From NCBI GenBank assembly GCA_937949545.1, contig CALEDR010000002.1, forward strand, positions 1 to 64,000: a stretch of DNA of 64,000 bases, read 5' to 3'. The position numbers and the translations under genes are program-made. The stretch is from an uncultured Phycisphaerae bacterium (GTDB lineage: Bacteria > Planctomycetota > Phycisphaerae > Sedimentisphaerales > Anaerohalosphaeraceae). Position 1 is the stretch's first letter, and every line of letters starts with the position of its first letter. Positions 10,182-27,488 of this stretch are shown in pieces. Under the pieces are notes generated by a model. It saw nothing but the letters and a program-made list of their open reading frames with translations, had not been told where the DNA came from and searched no databases.

Positions 10182-12931
<2,750 letters not shown>

Positions 12932-13055
12932 ATCAATCGGTCGGTTGTATGGGATTTCGCCATGGTTGGAAACGGCGCTGGATTGGACCAATCTGCTTTT
13001 TTGCAAGGTACGAGAATTTCGGCAGCTCCCGAAAGGGATATGCCGATTCACGAAC

Positions 13056-13164
13056 TCCTGGTGACCATGCGGACGGGGAAACGCCTGATCCCATTCCGAA
13101 CTCAGAAGCTAAGCCCGTCCGGCCGATGATAGTCCTTTGGGGCGAAAGTAGGTGATTGCCAGGT
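13056..13164 (+). rRNA. rrf: 5S ribosomal RNA
   Basis: The terminal helix is formed by CCTGG at 13057 and CCAGG ending at 13163. The internal sequences 'cccattccgaactcagaag' and 'gggcgaaagtaggt'-like loops are typical of 5S. It lies about 125 bases after the 23S and is followed by a hairpin terminator. Confidence 0.92.
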
Positions 13165-15468: not shown

Positions 15469-16347
15469 TCAGTTGGTTCCGACGGCCTTTGTTATTAAGT
15501 CGATCGCGTATACAGAGGAAGGGGTGTTGATGTAAAGGGTTTGCCGCTCAGGGCCGCCGATGCAGACATTGGTGGGGCTTTCGGGCAGGTCAATCGTATC
15601 GAGGAGCTGTCCATCGGGGGCGTAAATTTTGACCTGCCGACGCCAGGTAAGATAGACATTTCCGCGGCTGTCGAGGGTCATCCCATCGGAGCCGTCTGAA
15701 CAGAAAAGCCGCTTATTCGTGAGTGTGCCGTCTTTTTGGATGTCGTAGAGCCAGGTTTTGCCGGCGGCGTGGTCAGCCACATAGAGAAGTGCGCCGTCGG
15801 GAGTACCGATGAGTCCATTGGGCCGTATCATGTCGTCAATGACGCGGATGACCATGCGGTCCGGGTTGATGTAATAGACATGCTCGCCGTCCTGCTGCAT
15901 ATCGTCGCGGCTGCCGTATCGAGGGTCGGTCATGTAAACACCGCCTTTGGGGTCAAGCCAGCAGTCGTTGGGGCTGTTGAATTTTTTGCCGTTATAGCCC
16001 TCAGCCAAGGTGATAATGTTTTTTTGGCGGTCAATTCGCAGGAGACGCCGGGGGCCGGCGGATTCACAGACAATCAGGGAGCCGTCCGGGGCGACCTGAA
16101 GGCCGTTGGAGTGGTTGGTTTCAATGTACTTGGAAACGGTGCCGTCAGGGGAGATTCGGTAAATCAAGCCGGCGGGGATGTCAGAGAAGTAGAGGGTTCC
16201 GTTGGGGTCGGCGGTGACGCCCTCGGTGAATTGAAAACCGCCGGCGATTTTTTGAGGGACGGCAGAGGGATGAATGGGGGAGGTTTCGGATTGGGAGTTG
16301 TCAACGGGGAGGATAGTCAGGAGAAAAAAGAAGATTGTTGTCAGCAT
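15469..16347 (-). CDS. SMP-30/gluconolactonase-like beta-propeller protein, exported
   Basis: Calcium- or zinc-dependent six-bladed propeller of the SMP-30/gluconolactonase/LRE family, which typically hydrolyses sugar lactones. Visible family features are FTEGVTADPNG (metal-binding Glu, about residues 40-50), FNSPNDCWLDPKGGVYMTDPRYG with the conserved Asn and Asp (about 120-145), and FCSDGSDGMTLDSRGNVY (about 215-232). The first 20 residues are hydrophobic and look like a signal peptide. The 292-residue length is normal. It lies next to glycan hydrolases, so a role in sugar-acid metabolism is plausible but unproven. Confidence 0.82.
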   Translation of the reverse strand: MLTTIFFFLLTILPVDNSQSETSPIHPSAVPQKIAGGFQFTEGVTADPNGTLYFSDIPAGLIYRISPDGTVSKYIETNHSNGLQVAPDGSLIVCESAGPRRLLRIDRQKNIITLAEGYNGKKFNSPNDCWLDPKGGVYMTDPRYGSRDDMQQDGEHVYYINPDRMVIRVIDDMIRPNGLIGTPDGALLYVADHAAGKTWLYDIQKDGTLTNKRLFCSDGSDGMTLDSRGNVYLTWRRQVKIYAPDGQLLDTIDLPESPTNVCIGGPERQTLYINTPSSVYAIDLITKAVGTN

Positions 16348-16484: not shown

Positions 16485-18098
16485 TTATGCTTTTGTCCTT
16501 TCTGGGGCACTGTATGCTGTCTGTTTGGCTTCCGAGGATTCGACGAGAAGGTTTTGTGCGGCGGAGCGGTCGAGCAGGGCCAACAAGTCGTACACAGCCT
16601 CCTGGAGATGTTGGGCCTGCTTTTCCAGTTCGATAGAGGAGCTGGCAGTTTCTTCAGCACTGGAAGCGTTTTGTTGGGTGATGTGGTCCATTTGCGTGAC
16701 GGCGGAGGAGATTTGTTCTATGCCTTTGGCCTGCTCGTCGCTGGCTTGAGCGATTTCGTGAATAATTTGGGCGGTCTTGATGACGCTGGTTTCGATTTGC
16801 GCTAGTGTCTGTTGGACTTGGCTGGCAATTCCGACGCCGTTTTTGGCCTGATTGACAGCGTCTTCGATGAGGGAGGCGGTGTTTTTGGCGGCCTCGGCGG
16901 AACGCATGGCCAGGTTTCGGACCTCTTCGGCGACGACGGCGAACCCCTTGCCGGCCTCCCCGGCGCGGGCGGCCTCGACGGCGGCGTTGAGGGCCAGGAG
17001 GTTGGTTTGGAAGGCGATTTCGTCGATGACCTTAATAATTTTTGCGGTCCCTTCAGAACTTTTCTGAATGTCTTCAATGGCCTTGTTCATGGTTTCGATT
17101 GCCTGACGGCCTTTTTCGGCGTTCTGACGGGCTGCAGCGGCCAGACGATTGGCTTCCTGGGCGTGCTGAGCATTGGTTTTGGTCATCGCTGTGATTTGCT
17201 CGAGACTGGAAGTTGTCTGAGCCAAACCTACGGCTTGTTCCGAAGCTCCATTGGCGATGTTTTTGGAGGAGGAGGTGAACTGGACGGCAGCAGAGGACAG
17301 ATACTCGGATATGGTTCGATTGGCTTCAACCGCTTTTCGAAGAGGTCGAATGATTGTTCCGGCTGTCAGCGGCACAAGGACTGCCGAAACCAGAAGCAAA
17401 AACGCACCGACTATAGCCGCACTGTACCAAAGATTCCTGGCGAGGATACGCTGATTGCTTTGTTCGGATTCGAGGACAGCTTTCTGGATGGTTTCTTTCT
17501 GGGCGGCGATGCTGCGGAGGATTCGGTCTTTTTTCATTTCGACAAACAGCATGCCGTAGAACTGGCCGATTTCCATTGTGGGATTCATTCGGGCCATATC
17601 GGCATCGAGGAATAACGGCATATAAAATCGAAGGGTCTGAGCATTTTGTTCCAGCCCCTGGATAACGACATCCCGTTTTTGGAGTGCCTGCTGAAGGACA
17701 TCAGCGGGGATGGTTTGTCTGTCTGTGTTTGGATTGGAGGAAAGTTCCAGCCGTCCGTTGGGACCATAGAAGGAAAATTCATTGACCTGTTCGAGCTGGG
17801 TTTGCTTTTTGGCCAGGTCGAGAAATTTAGCGGCTTCTCCCGGCTGGAGAGAGCTGCCGACGGCAATAAAGATTTCCTGAAGGAGGTCTTTGGCGGCCTC
17901 TTCGCTGAGGGAGGTCATCTCGCCGACGGATTGTTCACTGATTTTGTTCAGGGACTCTTCAAACTGGCTGACCAGAGCGGATAGGTTCTTCCGAGTCAGT
18001 CCGTAATTAATGCTTTGAAGAATCAGAGCCAGTAAGATAAACGGAAGAAGTGTAATCAGGAGCATTTTCCCGAAGAGGGTCAGATGAAATACTTTCAT
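16485..18098 (-). CDS. Methyl-accepting chemotaxis protein, hydrogenase-linked
   Basis: Transmembrane chemoreceptor signalling to CheA/CheW. It has a helix at about residues 10-30, a periplasmic region of roughly 190 residues (single-Cache-like in size, containing [14 protein letters not shown]), a second helix at about 223-247, and the conserved signalling hairpin around residues 365-400 ([20 protein letters not shown]). No Cys or haem motif is seen in the sensor domain. There is no C-terminal methylesterase-binding pentapeptide. Its ATG lies two bases after the hydrogenase small-subunit stop, and its Shine-Dalgarno (GGAG) is inside that gene's end, so the two are translationally coupled. 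A hydrogenase partner is the obvious, unproven, hypothesis for the signal. Confidence 0.93.
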
Positions 18099-18100
18099 GT

Positions 18101-19066
18101 TTAGACTCCTTTGCGGTCATTTTCTGTATATTTTACCGGATGCTGCTGTTCGCCGATTCGATAGAAGGGGAAGGATTTTTTCTTGGCAAAGAACGGCGAG
18201 CTGCAGCCGATGCAAGGGGCGGAGGCCCGGATGCACCAGTTGACCCCGCTGTTCCACTGCCGGTGCGGACATTCCGTACGCGTCAGAGGTCCCAGACAGC
18301 CGAGTTTGAACAGACATCCGTGTGGGTCTCCGAAATGTTTGGAAAAGATTTTTCGCTCGTAGTCGTGGTAGCGGGGACACTGGTCGTGTGTGGAGGTGCC
18401 GTAAAAAATTTTGGGGGTCAGCAGCACTTCATCCACTTCGGGATATCCCTTGGCGGCCAGGTAGGCCAGTGTGCCGACAATGGGTTTGGGATGAGTCGGG
18501 CAGCTGGGACAATTGACCAGTTTGCCTTTCCAGTTCAGCTGGTGCTTATTCATCAGGTCTTGAACACTGCCGGAGCCGGTCGGATTGCCTTCTGCGGCGG
18601 GAATGCCGCCGAAAGCCGAACAGGTTCCGATGGCGACAACGGCTTTGGCTTTCGGAATCAGCTGCACGAGGATGTCTTCTGCAGTTCTTCCGCCGATCAG
18701 ACAGGCCTTCGGCATTCCGAGGGGAACAGAGCCCTCGACGGCCAGCAGATAGCCGTCTACCGAAGCGGCTTGCTCGAGGGCTTTCATAAAGGTTTGTCCC
18801 TGGGCGGCCCCGAGAGTCTGATGGACCACCAGCGTGATGTATCGGGTCAGCAGTTCCGCCGGTTCCGGGTCCGTGCTGTTCAGCAGAGAGACGGAATCGC
18901 CTGTGCAGGATTGGGCCTGAATCCAGATAACAGGGGTATGAGAAGTCATTTTTTCCAGTCCGGCGGCGAAGAGTTCCGCCCACCTTCCGGGGATGGAAAC
19001 CGAAGCAGCCAGAAAGCCGCCGAGTTTGAGAAAATCACGTCGTGTGAAGGGATGTTCTGTTTTCAT
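18101..19066 (-). CDS. [NiFe] hydrogenase small subunit with Tat signal
   Basis: Electron-transfer subunit carrying three Fe-S clusters. A twin-arginine signal [14 protein letters not shown] (8-21) indicates export with its partner. Cluster ligands can be read: proximal C54, D57 in SCTGDSVS (a Cys in classical enzymes), C149 and C189; distal H227, C230, C251, C257; medial C266, C285, C288, with classical spacing. No C-terminal membrane anchor is present, so it would not tether to a cytochrome b. An Asp as fourth proximal ligand is known from actinobacterial-type (group 1h) hydrogenases. It lies 33 bases after the large subunit and directly before the chemoreceptor gene. No protease or hyp genes are nearby. 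Confidence 0.93.
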
Positions 19067-19099
19067 TGGTTTTTTCCTTGCCGGTCAAGAACAGGGAAT

Positions 19100-20638
19100 T
19101 TAGTGAACGGCGCACGCAATGCAGGGGTCAAAAGAGCGAACAATCCGGCCTGCTTCAATCGGCTCAGCCGGGTTTTGAATCACGGTCCCTTCAAGGGCCT
19201 TTTCAACCGCACCGGGCTGTCCCCGGTCATCCCGCGGGGAGCAGTTCCAGGTCGTCGGCACGATGCACTGATAGCGTTCGATTCTATAGTTTTGGATAGT
19301 CAGCCAGTGTCCGAGGGCGCCGCGCGGAGCTTCTGTCAGTCCGACTCCGCTGCCCTGTTCAGGAAGGTCGAAGTCCGCTGCGGCGGGTTTTCCGATTTCC
19401 AGTTCGTCCAGCCAGCGGTCGCACTGGTCGGCAATCCATTTGGCTTCCAGTCCGCGGGCAAGGTGGCGTCCGAGCACGGAGTTGATTTTTTCAAGGGACA
19501 CGCCGGCGGCCGCCAGTGCGTCCTGAACATCTTTTTTCATTTCGGGATTTCCCGGACCCAGGCACAGGACCATCACACGGGCGGCCGGACCGACTTCCAT
19601 GACCTGCCCGTCATACCGGGGAGCTTTAATCCAGCTGTATCCTTTGAGGGGGGCTGGCTGTGCCGCCCCCTGCCAGGGATGAAGGCCTGAGGCGGAGGAG
19701 TAGCGGGAATGCTCGACAAACTCACGAATTTTTGATGTATCCAGCGGCTGGTAGGTTCCGCCGATAACAGCTCCGGAAGGCAGGAAGTTTCTAACTGCTT
19801 CTCCGGTTTTCTCTTCCATCCGGAAAACACCGTAGCTGAGAAAATTTCCCTGGCTTTTCCCGATGTCCCAGTATTGCGGGAACGCGGAGGCGGCCGTAAA
19901 GAGGTCCGGCAGATAGACCATGTGAATGAAGGTTTTGATTTGCTCCAGCCGCGATTTGCATGAGAGGACCCGTTCAATGGTAACCTCACCTGTAACGCCG
20001 GTGGGGACCAGAGAAGTTGAATGGGGCAGTTTGGCCCCAAAGACGGCGGCCATTTCGTGGGCGAGGGTGCGGATTTTCAGGGCTTTGGCATAGCTTTCGA
20101 TCAGCCGCCAGTTGGCTTCATCGGCCTTGAGGTATTGGTCCGTTTCCGTGCGAGGCAGGAAGGGGGCGCCCGGAAAGGCCAGATTTTTGTCGAGGGCGTT
20201 CTTGACCCAGTTTCGCAGATTGACCAGGGTCGGATCGGTTCCGTTGTATTTCAGGATGGCGGTGATGTCCACAAAATCCAGAGCAGCCAGGTGATAAAAA
20301 TGCAGAATATGCGAATGAAGATATTCCGCCGCCAAAATCAGGTTTTGGGCGATTCTTCCGTTGCGGGTCGGGAGAATGCCGAAGGCCATTTCCTGGGCCA
20401 TAACGGAAGCGATGCCGTGCGCAATGGGGCACACCCCGCAGATGCGCTGGGTGATTTGCTGGGCGTCCAGCGGGTCACGGCCCTGCAGGATGGTCTCCAG
20501 CCCGCGGAACATCTCCCCTTCACACCGGGCTTTTTTGACGATGGTTCGGCCCGAAGATGAGTCTTCTTCGGTTTCGAGGTGGATGGCCAAGTGGCCCTCA
20601 ATGCGGGTCAAGGGGCTGAGCACAACCGTTTGTGTCAT
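19100..20638 (-). CDS. [NiFe] hydrogenase large subunit lacking a C-terminal extension
   Basis: Catalytic subunit that binds the Ni-Fe(CN)2CO centre and interconverts H2 with protons and electrons. The motif RICGVCPIAHG (C67, C70) supplies two nickel ligands and DPCIACAVH at 504-512 the other two (C506, C509). The stop codon follows this His directly, so there is no peptide for a HyaD-type protease to remove; this is known for H2-sensing HupV/HoxC and CooH-type subunits. Two adjacent ATGs occur (20641 and 20638); the second has the better seven-base spacing from AGGAG. It is the first gene of the hydrogenase-chemoreceptor operon. Confidence 0.93.
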   Translation of the reverse strand: MTQTVVLSPLTRIEGHLAIHLETEEDSSSGRTIVKKARCEGEMFRGLETILQGRDPLDAQQITQRICGVCPIAHGIASVMAQEMAFGILPTRNGRIAQNLILAAEYLHSHILHFYHLAALDFVDITAILKYNGTDPTLVNLRNWVKNALDKNLAFPGAPFLPRTETDQYLKADEANWRLIESYAKALKIRTLAHEMAAVFGAKLPHSTSLVPTGVTGEVTIERVLSCKSRLEQIKTFIHMVYLPDLFTAASAFPQYWDIGKSQGNFLSYGVFRMEEKTGEAVRNFLPSGAVIGGTYQPLDTSKIREFVEHSRYSSASGLHPWQGAAQPAPLKGYSWIKAPRYDGQVMEVGPAARVMVLCLGPGNPEMKKDVQDALAAAGVSLEKINSVLGRHLARGLEAKWIADQCDRWLDELEIGKPAAADFDLPEQGSGVGLTEAPRGALGHWLTIQNYRIERYQCIVPTTWNCSPRDDRGQPGAVEKALEGTVIQNPAEPIEAGRIVRSFDPCIACAVH

Positions 20639-21027
20639 CATGAAACTCCTTAATCCTGAACTTCCTTTTTGTGTTCGAGGAGACCTCAACAGGACATAGG
20701 AAGTAATCGGAGAAAGCCGGCATAAGATTAAAAGAAATTATTCCTAATTTTGCTATACATAAAATCCCTATATGTGCATAAAGTTTTATGAAAGAGATTA
20801 GGGAAAGTTTTCTTCTCGTTTGGATGTGTGTTTTTTCAATTTTCGGCTTGTTTTTATCGGGGATGATTTTTTTATGGGACTTTTTGGAGTAAGAGACCTG
20901 TTTGGTTGTTGACAAGGGGGATTGTTTTTAAAAAATAGGGATCCCCGCCTTCGCGGGAAGGACGAAAGGGCGGGAATGAAAAAAGCGTGGGGATGACGAT
21001 AAGAAAGAGCGGGAAGGGCGAGGGTTT
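20639..21027. other. Divergent promoter region with REP-like hairpin
   Basis: The gap between the hydrogenase operon and folD is AT-rich near the hydrogenase. At 20939-20966 a short GC-rich palindromic sequence (atccccgccttcgcggga) resembles dispersed REP elements, and part of it recurs near 20990. A TTGACA at 20909-20914 with an A-rich -10 could drive folD. No ORF is supported; the ORF reading through 20598-20915 is a shadow. Confidence 0.45.
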
Positions 21028-21951
21028 ATGGGAAGCATACTAAATTGGAAAGGACAATCAGACGTGGCGGCAAAGATACTTGACGGCAAACAGATAGCGG
21101 TTCAGATGCGGGAAGAACTGAAAGGGCGGATTGCGGGACTTGCTCAGCGTGGGATTCGCCCGGGACTGGCGGTTATTCTGGTGGGGGATGACCCGGCGTC
21201 TAAGTCGTATGTGACGGCTAAAGAAAAGGCGTGTGAAGAGGTCGGGATTTATTCGAGTGACAATCGGCTGGTGGCCGCAACGACGGAGTCGGAACTGTTA
21301 GGGCTGATTGAACGATTCAACCAGGACCCGAAGATACACGGGATTTTGGTACAGCTGCCTCTGCCGAAGCACATAAACGAAGAGCGGATTTTAAATGCAA
21401 TTTGTCCGGAAAAGGATGTGGATGGATTTCATCCGGTTAATGTGGGGCGGATGGTAATCGGGCAGCGGTGTTTCCTGCCGTGTACGCCGCACGGGGTTGT
21501 CCAGATGCTCGTGCGAAGCGGGGTTGTGCTGGAGGGGGCCGAGGTGGTGATTGTAGGACGAAGCAATATTGTGGGCAAGCCGCTGGCCAATCTGCTGATT
21601 CAAAAAAGCCGCTTTGGAAACGCCACCGTGACGGTTTGTCATACCAAGACGCGAAATCTGGCCGAGCATGTCCGTCGGGCGGATATTGTGATTGCGGCGG
21701 CGGGCTGTCCGAGGACGATTACGGCGGATATGGTCAAAGAGGGAGCGGTGGTAATTGATGTAGGGGTCAATCGGGTGGAGGATGCTTCGGCCAAAAACGG
21801 GTATCGGCTGGTAGGCGACGTGGATTTTGAAGCGGTCCGACAGAAGGCGTCGATGATTACACCGGTGCCGGGCGGGGTGGGGCCGATGACCATTACGATG
21901 CTCTTGTATAATACCGTGGAGTCCGCGGAACGGGCGGCGGAGTTCCGGTAA
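21028..21951 (+). CDS. folD: Methylenetetrahydrofolate dehydrogenase/cyclohydrolase
   Basis: Bifunctional enzyme of one-carbon metabolism, converting 5,10-methylene-THF to 10-formyl-THF via methenyl-THF with NADP+. Recognisable parts are the catalytic YVTAKEKACEEVGI (Lys, Tyr), ILVQLPLPKHI, PEKDVDGFHPVNVGR, the Rossmann VIVGRSNIVGKPLA and the C-terminal TPVPGGVGPMTI. The ATG at 21028 gives 307 residues; a GTG at 21064, after AAAGGA, would give the more typical start at AAKILDGKQ and is a real alternative. It converges on the T2SS operon with an eight-base gap. It may feed one-carbon units together with the gcv genes further down. Confidence 0.96.
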   Translation: MGSILNWKGQSDVAAKILDGKQIAVQMREELKGRIAGLAQRGIRPGLAVILVGDDPASKSYVTAKEKACEEVGIYSSDNRLVAATTESELLGLIERFNQDPKIHGILVQLPLPKHINEERILNAICPEKDVDGFHPVNVGRMVIGQRCFLPCTPHGVVQMLVRSGVVLEGAEVVIVGRSNIVGKPLANLLIQKSRFGNATVTVCHTKTRNLAEHVRRADIVIAAAGCPRTITADMVKEGAVVIDVGVNRVEDASAKNGYRLVGDVDFEAVRQKASMITPVPGGVGPMTITMLLYNTVESAERAAEFR

Positions 21952-22608: not shown

Positions 22609-24198
22609 TCAGCCTCCTAAATGGGATGTGACCCGCTTGATTTCTTCGAGCGTTGTAATCCCGGCTAAAACCTTGGCCATGCCGTCACGGCGGAGTGTGG
22701 CGAAAAAGTCCCGGTCGCCTTTCTGTTTCAGGTCGGCCGGGGAAAGGGTGCCGCTGACGAGGGTATGGCGGAGTTTGTCGTCCATGTAGGTAACGTCCAT
22801 GATGGCGATACGTCCGTAATAGCCGGTTCCGCCGCATCGACCGCAGCCGCGGGCCTGGAGAATTTTGGTCTGGTCAAGGTTGTTCTGGAGGCAGTAGTCA
22901 AGCTGGCTTTGGGTCAGTTCGGCGAGGCCTTTGCATGCGTCGCAGAGCCGGCGGACCAGCCGCTGAGAGATGATGACGCTCAGCGCTGAGGCCAGCAGGA
23001 GCGGACGCACGCCTAAATCCATCATCCGCACGAGGGCGGCCATGTTGCTGGAGGCGTGAAGCGTGGCCAGGACGAGATGACCGGTCTGGGCGGCCTGCAC
23101 GGCCATAGCGGCGGTTTCAGCGTCGCGGATTTCACCGATGCAGATGACATCCGGGTCCTGCCGAAGGATGCTTCGCAGGGAATTGGCGAAGGTGACACCG
23201 GCTTTCACATTGACTTCAATCTGGCTGGCGTGGGGCAGGACGTGTTCGATGGGGTCTTCAATGGTGACAATATTGCGCTCCTGAAAATTCATATTCGAGA
23301 GCATAGCATAGAGGGTTGTGGTTTTGCCGCTGCCGGTCGGGCCGCAGACCAGGACCATGCCGGAGGGTTGCCGGATGATATTCCGAATGGCCTTCTGGGT
23401 GCGGTCGTCCATTCCAATTTCCTCCAGAGACATCAGACTGCGGGTCTGGTCGAGGACGCGGATGGCCAGTTTCTCCCCGCCGAGGACGCCGGAGGAGGCC
23501 ACGCGGAAGTAGATTTCGCCGTCGGGGGTGCGGGCCATGAAGGCCCCATCCTGGGGGCGGCGTTTTTCGGCAATATCCATCCCGGAGATAGCTTTGATGC
23601 TGTTGATGACGGAGCTGCAGACCTTGGCGTCGATTTCTTCGTACACGCGGAGCATGCCGTCGATGCGGTAGCGGACGGTATAAACGGCATCCGATTTGGG
23701 GTCAATCAGGATGTCCGTAGCCCGGCCCTGAAGACCTTCGAGGATGAGCCGCTCGGTCAGGTCCAGAATCTCGCGGTTGGTGCGTCTTCCGGAGGACTGC
23801 TGGGCATAGACGTCGGCAAAATGCCGTCCGGCTGTGTCCATTAATTCAATCGAGGGACCGATGGAGGTGATAGGACGGGCCTTGCTGATGGGGTTGGTTC
23901 TGAAAATGGCGGCGAGGGTGTATTTAGGCAGGTCGGTCCAGAGGAGTTTGCCGGCCTGAATCTTCTGGACGACATCCACGACAAAGAGGACGAAAAGAAC
24001 GGCCGGCCCGACAAAGAGGGCGGCTGTATTGGCCAAAGCCCGATATTGGTTAAGAATCAGGGGGCTTTCGTCGGAGCGGCGGACGGAATACAGACACAAA
24101 AAAAACCAAGCCAGCAGGAAAAGAACTTTGTAGGGGCTGAAAGGAAGAGTCCCATCAATCCGTTCCCAATCCGCCTGAAGCCCGCTCAGATCGGTCAT
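22609..24198 (-). CDS. GspE/PilB-type ATPase with N-terminal membrane helices
   Basis: Hexameric secretion-type ATPase. The core from about residue 120 has GPTGSGKTTTLYAM (Walker A), the Asp box IVTIEDPIEH, Walker B region PDVICIGEIRDAETA and the His box TGHLVLATLHA. Cys pairs DACKG and RGCGRCGGTG form the zinc-like module. The first 80 residues contain two hydrophobic helices (about 25-40 and 55-78), which soluble GspE, PilB and PilT lack. It is downstream of gspD and is the second such ATPase of this operon. It may power pseudopilus dynamics or another step at the membrane. ATPase assignment is certain; substrate process is inferred. Confidence 0.88.
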   Translation of the reverse strand: MTDLSGLQADWERIDGTLPFSPYKVLFLLAWFFLCLYSVRRSDESPLILNQYRALANTAALFVGPAVLFVLFVVDVVQKIQAGKLLWTDLPKYTLAAIFRTNPISKARPITSIGPSIELMDTAGRHFADVYAQQSSGRRTNREILDLTERLILEGLQGRATDILIDPKSDAVYTVRYRIDGMLRVYEEIDAKVCSSVINSIKAISGMDIAEKRRPQDGAFMARTPDGEIYFRVASSGVLGGEKLAIRVLDQTRSLMSLEEIGMDDRTQKAIRNIIRQPSGMVLVCGPTGSGKTTTLYAMLSNMNFQERNIVTIEDPIEHVLPHASQIEVNVKAGVTFANSLRSILRQDPDVICIGEIRDAETAAMAVQAAQTGHLVLATLHASSNMAALVRMMDLGVRPLLLASALSVIISQRLVRRLCDACKGLAELTQSQLDYCLQNNLDQTKILQARGCGRCGGTGYYGRIAIMDVTYMDDKLRHTLVSGTLSPADLKQKGDRDFFATLRRDGMAKVLAGITTLEEIKRVTSHLGG

Positions 24199-24302
24199 GC
24201 CGCCTATACACTCCTCACGCTGCCTGTATTTCTGCTTGTATCTGCAGATATTCTATCAGGCCGAAGCGTTTCGGGCAACTTGTTTTTTGATTTGTTATGT
24301 CC

Positions 24303-27300
24303 TCAATCGGCTTTTGTTTCTCCGAGGTCTTCCTCCTGGAAAAATCGGCGTCGGACATTTTCCTCCATTTGCTCGATTTGGGTTTTGATTTTTGAATGCG
24401 GCTGGTAAACCTGCCGGTTTCGTTCTTCTTCCGTTTCTGTAGGCATTTGGGCCAGCCCGCGGTCATCTATTACGTAGGGTGTAACAAACACGAGCAGTTC
24501 ATCGTTCTGAAGAACCTTGTTATTATGCCGGAACAGACCGCCGACCAGCGGAAGGTCTCCGAGGAGAGGGACTTTCTGGACGATGCTGACATCGTTCTGG
24601 AAGAGAAGACCGCCGAGAATGACGGACTGGCCGTCGTTGACAATCATGTGGGTCATTGTATCCAGATTCTTCCGAGTCGGCTGGGTGTTGACGATTTCCT
24701 CCTGCAGCTGCGAGATATTCAGATGAATGGCCATATCGACGGCCTTTTCCGGAGTGATGTTGGGCCGGATGCGCAGGGTGACGCCGACGTCCTCGAAGTC
24801 AAAGGTGCGCTGGACGGAATTGGTGTTGGTGCGGTCGTAGGAGTCGCCGGTAATAAAGGCAACCTTCTGGGCCTTGACAAACCGGGCTTCTTCGTTGTCC
24901 TTCGTCCACAGCGTGGGCTGGTTGAGAATCTTGGCGTTGGCGTTTTTGACCAAGAAGTCGATCAGCAAGTCGGCGTTGCTTTCGGCGGACAGGGCGAAGG
25001 ATTTTCGTGTATAGGTGGCGGTCAGGTTGTTGAGAATATCAACCGCATTGACGCCGATGGTGCCGAAGGCGCTGGGATCGGACGACAGCCGCACGCCCAG
25101 GGAGGTGACGTCGCTGTGGTCAATTTCCATAATAACGACTTTGATCATCACCTGCATGCCGGGCTGATCGAGCTGCTCAATCATGTTCAGGATGTCATCC
25201 ATAAACTTCGGCGGGGCCAGGACCAGCAGGGCCTTGCTGCGGGCAACCGGGATAAACCGGACCCGTCCAATCAGATTGCTGGGCGGCATCTGGTCCTGCG
25301 TCTGCCGCTGCGTCGTCCACCAGGGCCGGATGGTGCCGGCGGATTCCTGCATCTGGGTCTCGGTGGTGGTTGTGGAGGTGGATTCGGTGCTGTAGGCGCT
25401 GAGCCCTTGTACGCTTCGCTGAATGGTGGCGGTGGTGCCGGATTCATTGAGGATGGCGTTCAGCTGGTCGCTGAGCTGCTCGGCATCCGCGTATTTAAGT
25501 ATGACGACGCGGGGAACTTCGGCGCCTTCCTGCCCGTCCAAATCCTGCACAAGCCGTTCGATGACATCGTAGGCTTCGGGGATTTTGCTGATGACGAGGA
25601 TTTTTTTGGTATCGGGGACGGCTTCAAAGGTGAGCATTCCGTAGAGAGAGCCGACGATTTTGCTCTTGGACTGTTCCTGTTCTCCGAACAGAATCCGCAG
25701 CAGCGACCGGGAGCCGGAAGATTCGGATTCCTTGCTGAACAGCCGCGTAAGCAGGTCGGCCATTTTGACGGCGTCAGAGTTCTGGAGAGTGATAATGCGG
25801 TACTGGTCTTTGCGCAAGTCGAGGGGGATATCCCATTCCTCTTCGATTTGCCGGGCGATGCGCTGCATATTCTTTTCAGAGGCGATGACGGTCACCTGCC
25901 GCAGGGTGGGATAGGAGATGACTTTGACGGTTTCCTCCGGATTGATGGTTCGGGAGCGGGATGTGTTTCGGCTGGAGCCCCAGCTGTAGGAACTAAGGGT
26001 TCCGGCCTCGGTTTCATAAAGTCCTTCGATGTTCTGCTTGATTTGGTCAGGGTCGGCGTGCTTGAGTTTGAATGTGCGTTCGATGTAGATGTCTTCTTTG
26101 GGCAGGTCAATCTGGGCGATGAGTTTTTCGACGATTTTCCGGTTTTCATCGCTGCCGAAGACGACAATCTGATTGGTGCCCTGCAGGGGCTGGACGACGA
26201 GGTTGGCGGTCAGGTCGGTGCCGGGCATCTCGCGCAGGGCCTGGGTGACCATGGTGGCGACTTCACGGACGTCGGCGTATCGAATCTGGAAGACCTGCTG
26301 TTTGGGTTCTGTGCTTTCGCCGATGTCAAGTTTTTGGATCCAGGCTTCGATGGTCTGCATGTCGGCTCGGGAGGCGCGGGCCAAAATCCAGTGCTGTTTG
26401 GGCATGGCGATGAGCCGAATTGGGATGTCTCCGGTTCCGATGACGACGGCCGGAGCGGCCGCGGCGGCTTGTGTGCCTTCCCGTCCTCGTCCGGGGCCTG
26501 CACGAAAACCGGTTTGAGCGGTCGAGCCTCGCTGGGCTTGGGCGGACTGGCCGAGGATGAGATTGAGGACCTGGACGACTTCAATGGGGTCGGCGGTTTT
26601 GAGTTCGAAGATGCGTTCGACGGCTTGGGCGGATTCGGGGACGTCCAGCTGCTGGATGACCTGTTCGATGCGGCGGAGATTTTCGACGGTGTCAATAACG
26701 GAGATGCGTCCGGTGGAGTCATCGGCGGTGACGTGGCCGTATTCGGCGGTCAGGGAACTGACCACTTGGGCCATTTGAGAGGCCTTGTAGTTGGACAATT
26801 GATACCATTTTTCGACGACCTGTGCGGGGTCGGAGATGCGGGCCAGCGGTTCATCAACCCCGAGAGTCGGGACGGCGCCGAGCCGGGCACTGGCCAGCGG
26901 TTTGAGGAAAATGGTATTGCCGGTCTGGTCCACGAGCACTCCGCGGGCGTGAAGGGCGGAGACGAGCAGGGCCAGGGCCTCCTGTCGGGTCACCCGTTTG
27001 GGGGAATACACCGTGATGCGGGTCTGCATGATTTCATCGTTGACAGGGATAACCGGTTTGTTGGTCCAGTCGGCCAAAATGCGGAGGATGTTTTTCATCT
27101 CCATATCACTGAGCTGAACGGATTCAAGGCCGTCGCCGGATTGGTTTGGGTCGGAGCGGCTCATATCACCGGGTCTGGGGCCGCGTTCGCCGAAACCGGG
27201 GAATCCGCCGAAGCCTTCGGTCCGCCTGCCGAATGTACGTGCACGGCGGGACTCCTCCGGCTGCGGCTGGTCTGGCTCGCCGTTTTGCTGAGAGGAAGCT

Positions 27301-27488
27301 TGCCCGGAAGCCGTCGGAGCGGCAGCCTGACTTTGCTGAAGGTTTATCTGGGGACTTGGCGATTCACGTTGAGCGGATTCTGTTTTGGCAGGTTCGGGGC
27401 CGGTCGATTTGGAGCGTGCCGACATCCAATAACCGAGCAGGAAAAGTCCGAGAATCAGAATAATTACAATCCATCCTGTTTTTTTCAT
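24303..27488 (-). CDS. gspD: Type II secretion secretin, long form
   Basis: Outer-membrane channel of the secretion system. Residues about 6-22 are a hydrophobic segment acting as a signal/anchor. N-domains (N0/N1-type repeats, for example VQLSDMEMKNILRILADWTNK) fill about residues 120-760, with at least five repeated modules, and the C-terminal secretin domain contains the conserved VPLLGDLPLVGGLFRH (about 980-995) and LLVFVTPYVI. At 1061 residues it is much longer than the usual 650-750, through extra N-domain modules and Gln/Ser-rich linkers. No pilotin-binding S-domain is obvious. It follows the C-like gene by 68 bases. Confidence 0.92.
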   Translation of the reverse strand: MKKTGWIVIILILGLFLLGYWMSARSKSTGPEPAKTESAQRESPSPQINLQQSQAAAPTASGQASSQQNGEPDQPQPEESRRARTFGRRTEGFGGFPGFGERGPRPGDMSRSDPNQSGDGLESVQLSDMEMKNILRILADWTNKPVIPVNDEIMQTRITVYSPKRVTRQEALALLVSALHARGVLVDQTGNTIFLKPLASARLGAVPTLGVDEPLARISDPAQVVEKWYQLSNYKASQMAQVVSSLTAEYGHVTADDSTGRISVIDTVENLRRIEQVIQQLDVPESAQAVERIFELKTADPIEVVQVLNLILGQSAQAQRGSTAQTGFRAGPGRGREGTQAAAAAPAVVIGTGDIPIRLIAMPKQHWILARASRADMQTIEAWIQKLDIGESTEPKQQVFQIRYADVREVATMVTQALREMPGTDLTANLVVQPLQGTNQIVVFGSDENRKIVEKLIAQIDLPKEDIYIERTFKLKHADPDQIKQNIEGLYETEAGTLSSYSWGSSRNTSRSRTINPEETVKVISYPTLRQVTVIASEKNMQRIARQIEEEWDIPLDLRKDQYRIITLQNSDAVKMADLLTRLFSKESESSGSRSLLRILFGEQEQSKSKIVGSLYGMLTFEAVPDTKKILVISKIPEAYDVIERLVQDLDGQEGAEVPRVVILKYADAEQLSDQLNAILNESGTTATIQRSVQGLSAYSTESTSTTTTETQMQESAGTIRPWWTTQRQTQDQMPPSNLIGRVRFIPVARSKALLVLAPPKFMDDILNMIEQLDQPGMQVMIKVVIMEIDHSDVTSLGVRLSSDPSAFGTIGVNAVDILNNLTATYTRKSFALSAESNADLLIDFLVKNANAKILNQPTLWTKDNEEARFVKAQKVAFITGDSYDRTNTNSVQRTFDFEDVGVTLRIRPNITPEKAVDMAIHLNISQLQEEIVNTQPTRKNLDTMTHMIVNDGQSVILGGLLFQNDVSIVQKVPLLGDLPLVGGLFRHNNKVLQNDELLVFVTPYVIDDRGLAQMPTETEEERNRQVYQPHSKIKTQIEQMEENVRRRFFQEEDLGETKAD

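Follow-up and report, generated by a model that had tools for sequence, protein, structure and literature searches.

A [NiFe] hydrogenase encoded with a chemoreceptor as a candidate H2-taxis system

H2-directed movement in bacteria has, to our knowledge, little molecular explanation, and the known [NiFe] H2 sensors act on gene expression via kinases. The closest described systems are the regulatory, H2-sensing hydrogenases HoxBC/HupUV (group 2b) and their signalling partner HoxJ, of which HoxBC is expected to be cytoplasmic and HoxC has no cleavable C-terminal peptide on its large subunit (PMC10073562), and the [FeFe] hydrogenases of group C2, which the available part of the HydDB article (PMC5037454) labels "chemotactic (putative)" and associates with methyl-accepting chemotaxis proteins (MCPs), with a proposed role in H2 sensing; no MCP-linked [NiFe] class is listed in that part. 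Here we describe, in a stretch of 64,000 nucleotides (the window) from an uncultured Phycisphaerae bacterium, a three-gene operon that encodes the large subunit (LSU) and small subunit (SSU) of a [NiFe] hydrogenase together with an MCP. This module is probably a periplasmic H2-sensing chemoreceptor, in which the hydrogenase would act as the H2-detecting subunit of the co-encoded MCP. A possible H2-taxis system had been proposed in an earlier reading of the window (the sequence-only reading), and this view gains support from a gene order conserved in several phyla and from the occurrence of cheA in six of the clusters. No [NiFe] hydrogenase-MCP sensor was found in the open-licence papers searched; in the available part of a neighbourhood survey (PMC12727194), an MCP-domain cluster is listed among the neighbours of [NiFe] LSU genes but not discussed. 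The module thus provides a concrete and widespread candidate H2 chemoreceptor in anaerobes, and since some of these are sulfate reducers available in culture, Desulfobacter for example, H2 taxis can now be put to the test.

The operon and its hydrogenase

The operon and the two hydrogenase features first needed here are as follows (positions in the window):
19100..20641, minus strand: LSU, large subunit of a group-1 [NiFe] hydrogenase, 513 aa (PF00374)
19103..19129, minus strand: LSU C-terminus DPCIACAVH, stop codon immediately after, no cleavable peptide (translation)
18101..19066, minus strand: SSU, hydrogenase small subunit, 321 aa, exported by the twin-arginine translocation (Tat) route (PF01058 and PF14720)
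19025..19045, minus strand: twin-arginine motif TRRDFLK of the SSU (in FTRRDFLK; RR are residues 9-10 and invariant in the SSU alignment)
16485..18098, minus strand: MCP, transmembrane chemoreceptor, 537 aa (PF00015)

The genes follow each other in the order LSU, SSU and MCP on the minus strand, with gaps of 33 bp (LSU-SSU) and 2 bp (SSU-MCP), as already given in the sequence-only reading; the LSU start at 20638 in that reading is the second Met, the ATG being located at 20641. Pfam matches are NiFeSe_Hases (PF00374, 486 bits) for the LSU, Oxidored_q6 (PF01058) plus NiFe_hyd_SSU_C (PF14720) for the SSU and MCPsignal (PF00015, 157 bits) for the MCP. The N- and C-terminal CxxC Ni ligands of the LSU, and the three Fe-S clusters and Tat signal of the SSU, place the enzyme in group 1, all Fe-S ligands being in place except for an Asp at proximal ligand 2. 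The sequence-only reading had also recognised the Tat signal, which corresponds to the twin-arginine motif of the SSU.

Among proteins of solved structure, periplasmic [NiFeSe]/[NiFe] hydrogenases (group 1a, e.g. 1cc1, 5jsu and 4u9h) are closest in sequence, and the enzyme shares with them Tat export and a soluble SSU whose hydrophilic C-terminus has no membrane helix. It differs from them in lacking both selenocysteine (Sec) and the C-terminal LSU peptide, in having the LSU ahead of the SSU and in its receptor partner. A Sec-containing [NiFeSe] hydrogenase (HysAB) was ruled out because no stop codon occurs inside DPCIAC, and the NCBIfam HysA score of the LSU is 467.6 bits, under the 780-bit cut-off.

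In standard [NiFe] hydrogenases, the LSU carries a C-terminal peptide. Here, no residue follows DPCxxCxxH in any LSU of the clade described below that has an intact end, whereas relatives outside this clade bear the peptide in the alignment. With its end at exactly DPCIACAVH, the LSU does not depend on a maturation protease, and the argument against an uptake enzyme that the sequence-only reading had drawn from a missing protease is better replaced by this one, namely that there is nothing to cleave. The absence of hyp genes pointed out in the same reading holds for the operon, HypD being encoded elsewhere in the genome, and hyp genes recur near some of the clade loci.

Two subunits, an LSU without cleavable peptide and a signalling partner are features shared with HoxBC/HupUV and HoxJ. 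The window system nevertheless belongs to group 1, and identity with group 2b was rejected on two counts, the RR export signal of the SSU and a partner that is a transmembrane MCP instead of a HoxJ-type histidine kinase. Pairing with an MCP, and the H2 sensing proposed on this basis, recall [FeFe] group C2, an assignment that was ruled out since LSU and SSU are of the [NiFe] type; the window system is moreover periplasmic.

Distribution of the hydrogenase-receptor pair

An SSU-alignment scan covering genomes of 84,980 species returned 80 loci, to which two earlier loci were added. The 80 loci occur in Planctomycetota, Lentisphaerae, Verrucomicrobia, Omnitrophota, Krumholzibacteriota, Hydrogenedentes, sulfate reducers, Desulfuromonadales and others. 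In the LSU tree, 72 members form a single clade (support 0.948) to the exclusion of eight outgroups bearing the C-terminal LSU peptide. Among the 75 clade loci with 700 bp or more of sequence following the SSU, an MCP with the sensor domain of the window receptor is found directly beside the SSU in 63 and anywhere in the locus in 69. The check put forward in the sequence-only reading, recurrence of the gene order in other planctomycetes, is therefore strongly borne out, and the order is also found in further phyla.

The same partnership is seen within the class, for which 298 Phycisphaerae genomes were searched for the hydrogenase and for the sensor profile. The clade hydrogenase is present in several families and in 12 genomes (two from partial genes), while the sensor occurs in 10, in one copy each and always at the hydrogenase locus, and never alone (Fisher p 5e-17 over the 298 genomes, relatedness being ignored and only the best first-look candidates per genome being scored). 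No MCP was found in the flanks of eight other hydrogenases of the class genomes, which have the C-terminal peptide and mostly the SSU-LSU order. Distances between sensors follow those between LSUs (r 0.79; Mantel, 0 of 2000 permutations), and the link to the hydrogenase is kept where the signalling half of the receptor switches type. Around the clade loci, neither a cytochrome b nor a quinone subunit family recurs, and the sequence-only reading had seen no cytochrome b partner in the window. A plasmid search returned distant ordinary hydrogenases only.

At six loci from two phyla (five in Desulfobacula/Desulfotignum and one verrucomicrobial), the hydrogenase-MCP cluster is continued by cheA, cheW and either cheB or cheR/cheD, CheA domains being confirmed for two of them. 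The genome of the window has a single cluster with CheA, CheW, CheR, CheB, CheD, CheX and an MCP, and four MCPs were found in all; FliM/FliN, flagellin and HypD are likewise encoded in the genome outside the operon.

Variants of the arrangement were also observed. At five loci (L119, L136, L139, L141 and L143), the SSU is separated from the heme MCP by a second MCP that has no CxxCH, and cheA-cheW-cheB come next. The MCP is located upstream in L078, and in Planctomycetes bacterium CA13 (L091:7788-12350) the LSU is inverted relative to SSU-MCP yet still adjoins them.

The sensor domain and the small-subunit tail

Five further features concern the receptor and the SSU:
17529..17846, minus strand: periplasmic single-Cache sensor domain of the MCP, about residues 85-190 (AlphaFold2 (AF2) model, mean pLDDT 88.9)
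17583..17597, minus strand: degenerate heme-c site MARMN, residues 168-172 of the MCP, opposite the C[ILV]RCH of relatives (alignment and hhalign)
18896..18898, minus strand: Asp57 of the SSU in place of the second Cys ligand of the proximal [4Fe-4S] cluster, CTGDS for CTGCS (alignments)
18509..18511, minus strand: extra Cys186 of the SSU, three residues ahead of proximal ligand 4 (Cys189) (alignment)
18104..18157, minus strand: SSU C-terminal tail (YR)xGExxHxVxYxExDRxG, conserved in the branch with heme-less receptors and absent from the branch with heme receptors

The MCP has the features of its class, with a periplasmic domain between two transmembrane segments and a conserved signalling hairpin whose alignment with E. 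coli Tsr (1qu7) shows no net gap. Its model (helix, mixed alpha/beta domain, helix) agrees with the periplasmic sensor between two helices seen in the sequence-only reading. Searches of Pfam and PDB sequences with the sensor alone gave no match over threshold, and the domain was identified by fold search and comparison with heme-bearing relatives. Foldseek matched it to the Cache domain of WalK and to the heme-c sensors GSU0935/GSU0582 (3b42/3b47). Proteins of the sCache_heme type carry CxxCH on a helix inserted between the last strands (PMC12889525), and the AF2 model of the window sensor likewise displays a short helix (166-171) between strands 155-163 and 180-189, i.e. the Cache fold with a short helix between beta3 and beta4. 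PF11845 (sCache_heme) gave no match in the window MCP and remained sub-threshold in two heme relatives (12-13 bits versus a cut-off of 24.1).

The CxxCH motif is present in 50 of the 69 related loci having the sensor and absent in the window. The sensors with and without heme are homologous (hhalign probability 100, E 1.3e-40), and the Arg common to MARMN and C[ILV]RCH is invariant across both. Fold and position of the CxxCH helix relate the family to GSU0582/GSU0935, DcrA and sCache_heme (DUF3365/Tll0287), and the heme-bearing relatives share their receptor architecture as well. The window receptor differs from these by its missing CxxCH, and in the literature searched no hydrogenase link is reported for those receptors; the sCache_heme preprint (PMC12889525) makes no mention of hydrogenases.

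Loss of the heme site coincides with changes in the SSU. Of the loci with the sensor, 50 have the heme motif and no SSU tail, 17 the tail and no heme motif, two neither (L071 and L072, from one metagenome-assembled genome and also without the extra Cys) and none both. The position of Cys186 is Cys in 21/21 tail-bearing SSUs and Val, Ile or Leu in 60/60 others. The tail-bearing branch, which comprises 22 LSUs from several phyla, forms one clade (support 0.995). The branch of the window has lost the heme site and gained a conserved SSU tail and an extra Cys. In O2-tolerant membrane hydrogenases, the additional Cys of the six-Cys proximal cluster occupy the CTCCS and TC positions; this cluster was considered and not matched, the extra Cys of the window being located elsewhere, three residues before ligand 4. 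Asp or Glu at proximal ligand 2 is confined to the genus of the window and a sister genus, with Cys in all other aligned clade members. A Cys-to-Asp change at this position is recorded among database hydrogenases and is active in an engineered enzyme (PMC4070099); the window SSU shares this change, although those are different hydrogenases for which no receptor is reported there.

Heme-c receptors also occur in other settings. MCPs away from a hydrogenase (L160, L161 and L162) have CGRCH, CAQCH or CQQCH, while hydrogenase-linked ones almost always have C[ILV]RCH. In an Omnitrophota genome (L159:6329-9373), the same heme-c sensor domain is fused to a hybrid histidine kinase.

Mechanism, competing explanations and genomic surroundings

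If the module senses H2, the Tat-exported LSU-SSU would bind the Cache domain of the MCP, and H2 turnover would alter the receptor, whose E. coli-type hairpin would pass the change on to CheA and through it to flagellar rotation; complex formation, a response to H2 and taxis, which could be towards or away from H2, are predictions from sequence. In the ancestral, common form, H2 electrons would probably pass through the Fe-S chain of the SSU to the covalent heme c of the receptor, a route from H2 via hydrogenase and receptor heme to CheA that is suggested by the C[ILV]RCH present in the sensor of most relatives. Heme sensors of the GSU0582/GSU0935 type switch with redox state, with midpoints of -156 and -251 mV (PMC8396549), and since these values lie within the reach of H2 such sensors should be reducible by it. 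In the form found in the window, the heme has probably given way to direct coupling, for which the conserved SSU tail would provide the contact, and the unusual proximal cluster of three Cys and Asp57, together with the extra Cys186, could serve as a redox switch. More tentatively, a redox or ligand rearrangement at the proximal cluster of the heme-less branch (three Cys and Cys/Asp/Glu57, with Cys186 beside) might move the SSU tail against the heme-less Cache receptor, so that the signal would travel by shape and not by electrons; if so, an evolutionary switch from electron relay to direct-contact H2 sensing would have occurred inside one family. The heme-to-tail transition itself is a natural experiment in the communication between a redox enzyme and a receptor.

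Several observations weigh against an H2-sensing receptor. Active-site stretches of the LSU resemble those of ordinary group-1 enzymes, so that normal turnover is likely. Because the tail-bearing branch is one clade, the correlation between heme, tail and Cys186 amounts essentially to one evolutionary event. Finally, one genome (G236) has a tail-type hydrogenase and no recognisable sensor, and three Omnitrophota hydrogenase loci have no adjacent sensor, although one of these three genomes encodes CIRCH sensors away from the hydrogenase locus, in an MCP and in a hybrid histidine kinase. Hydrogenases of this kind without a chemoreceptor had been named in the sequence-only reading as a sign of chance adjacency, in which case hydrogenase and chemoreceptor would both be ordinary. 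They are limited to these rare cases, and chance was rejected as barely credible in view of direct adjacency in 63/75 loci across several phyla and of co-occurrence within the class.

The resemblance to standard group-1 active sites also fits an uptake hydrogenase that feeds periplasmic cytochromes, with the MCP as a general redox or energy-taxis receptor on the same electron pool and the link being metabolic; heme-c Cache receptors are indeed known as redox sensors (PMC8396549). We regard this as unlikely given the missing C-terminal LSU peptide, the lack of any recurrent cytochrome partner near the loci, the tight co-evolution of sensor and hydrogenase and the inability of heme-less receptors such as that of the window to read electrons via heme c. 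That the MCP senses NO or O2 by its heme, which the hydrogenase merely keeps reduced, appears less probable still. NO binding is described where sCache_heme domains are joined to signalling modules (PMC12889525), and one relative with a heme-sensor MCP has an apparent C-terminal hemerythrin-like domain, as judged by eye (L163:1-1971), yet the branch of the window dropped the heme motif and retained the hydrogenase partnership. Decay of the module in this branch, its function dwindling with the loss of the heme site and of a proximal ligand, would account for the missing CxxCH and for Cys57 being now Asp or Glu. It is nonetheless very improbable, since all three genes are intact, the SSU tail and Cys186 were gained and conserved, Asp at the proximal position is natural and functional in an engineered enzyme (PMC4070099), and the branch spans 22 LSUs and several phyla.

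The other periplasmic [NiFe] LSU in the genome of the window (L058) is interrupted by an in-frame TGA where a Trp is conserved (ITPTS*NASPRDD; G000:C29 9159-9161), which reflects either a broken gene or an assembly error; its counterpart from a genome of the same genus (G042) has no internal stop. Scans for promoters and terminators gave no signal above shuffles. The operon is flanked upstream by a divergent folD (21028-21951) and downstream by an SMP-30/gluconolactonase-type gene (15469-16347). Further away, positions 10186-13164 correspond to 23S and 5S rRNA genes, open reading frames called there being spurious, and beside folD a T2SSE-family ATPase gene adjoins an apparent large secretin-type gene (22609-27488).

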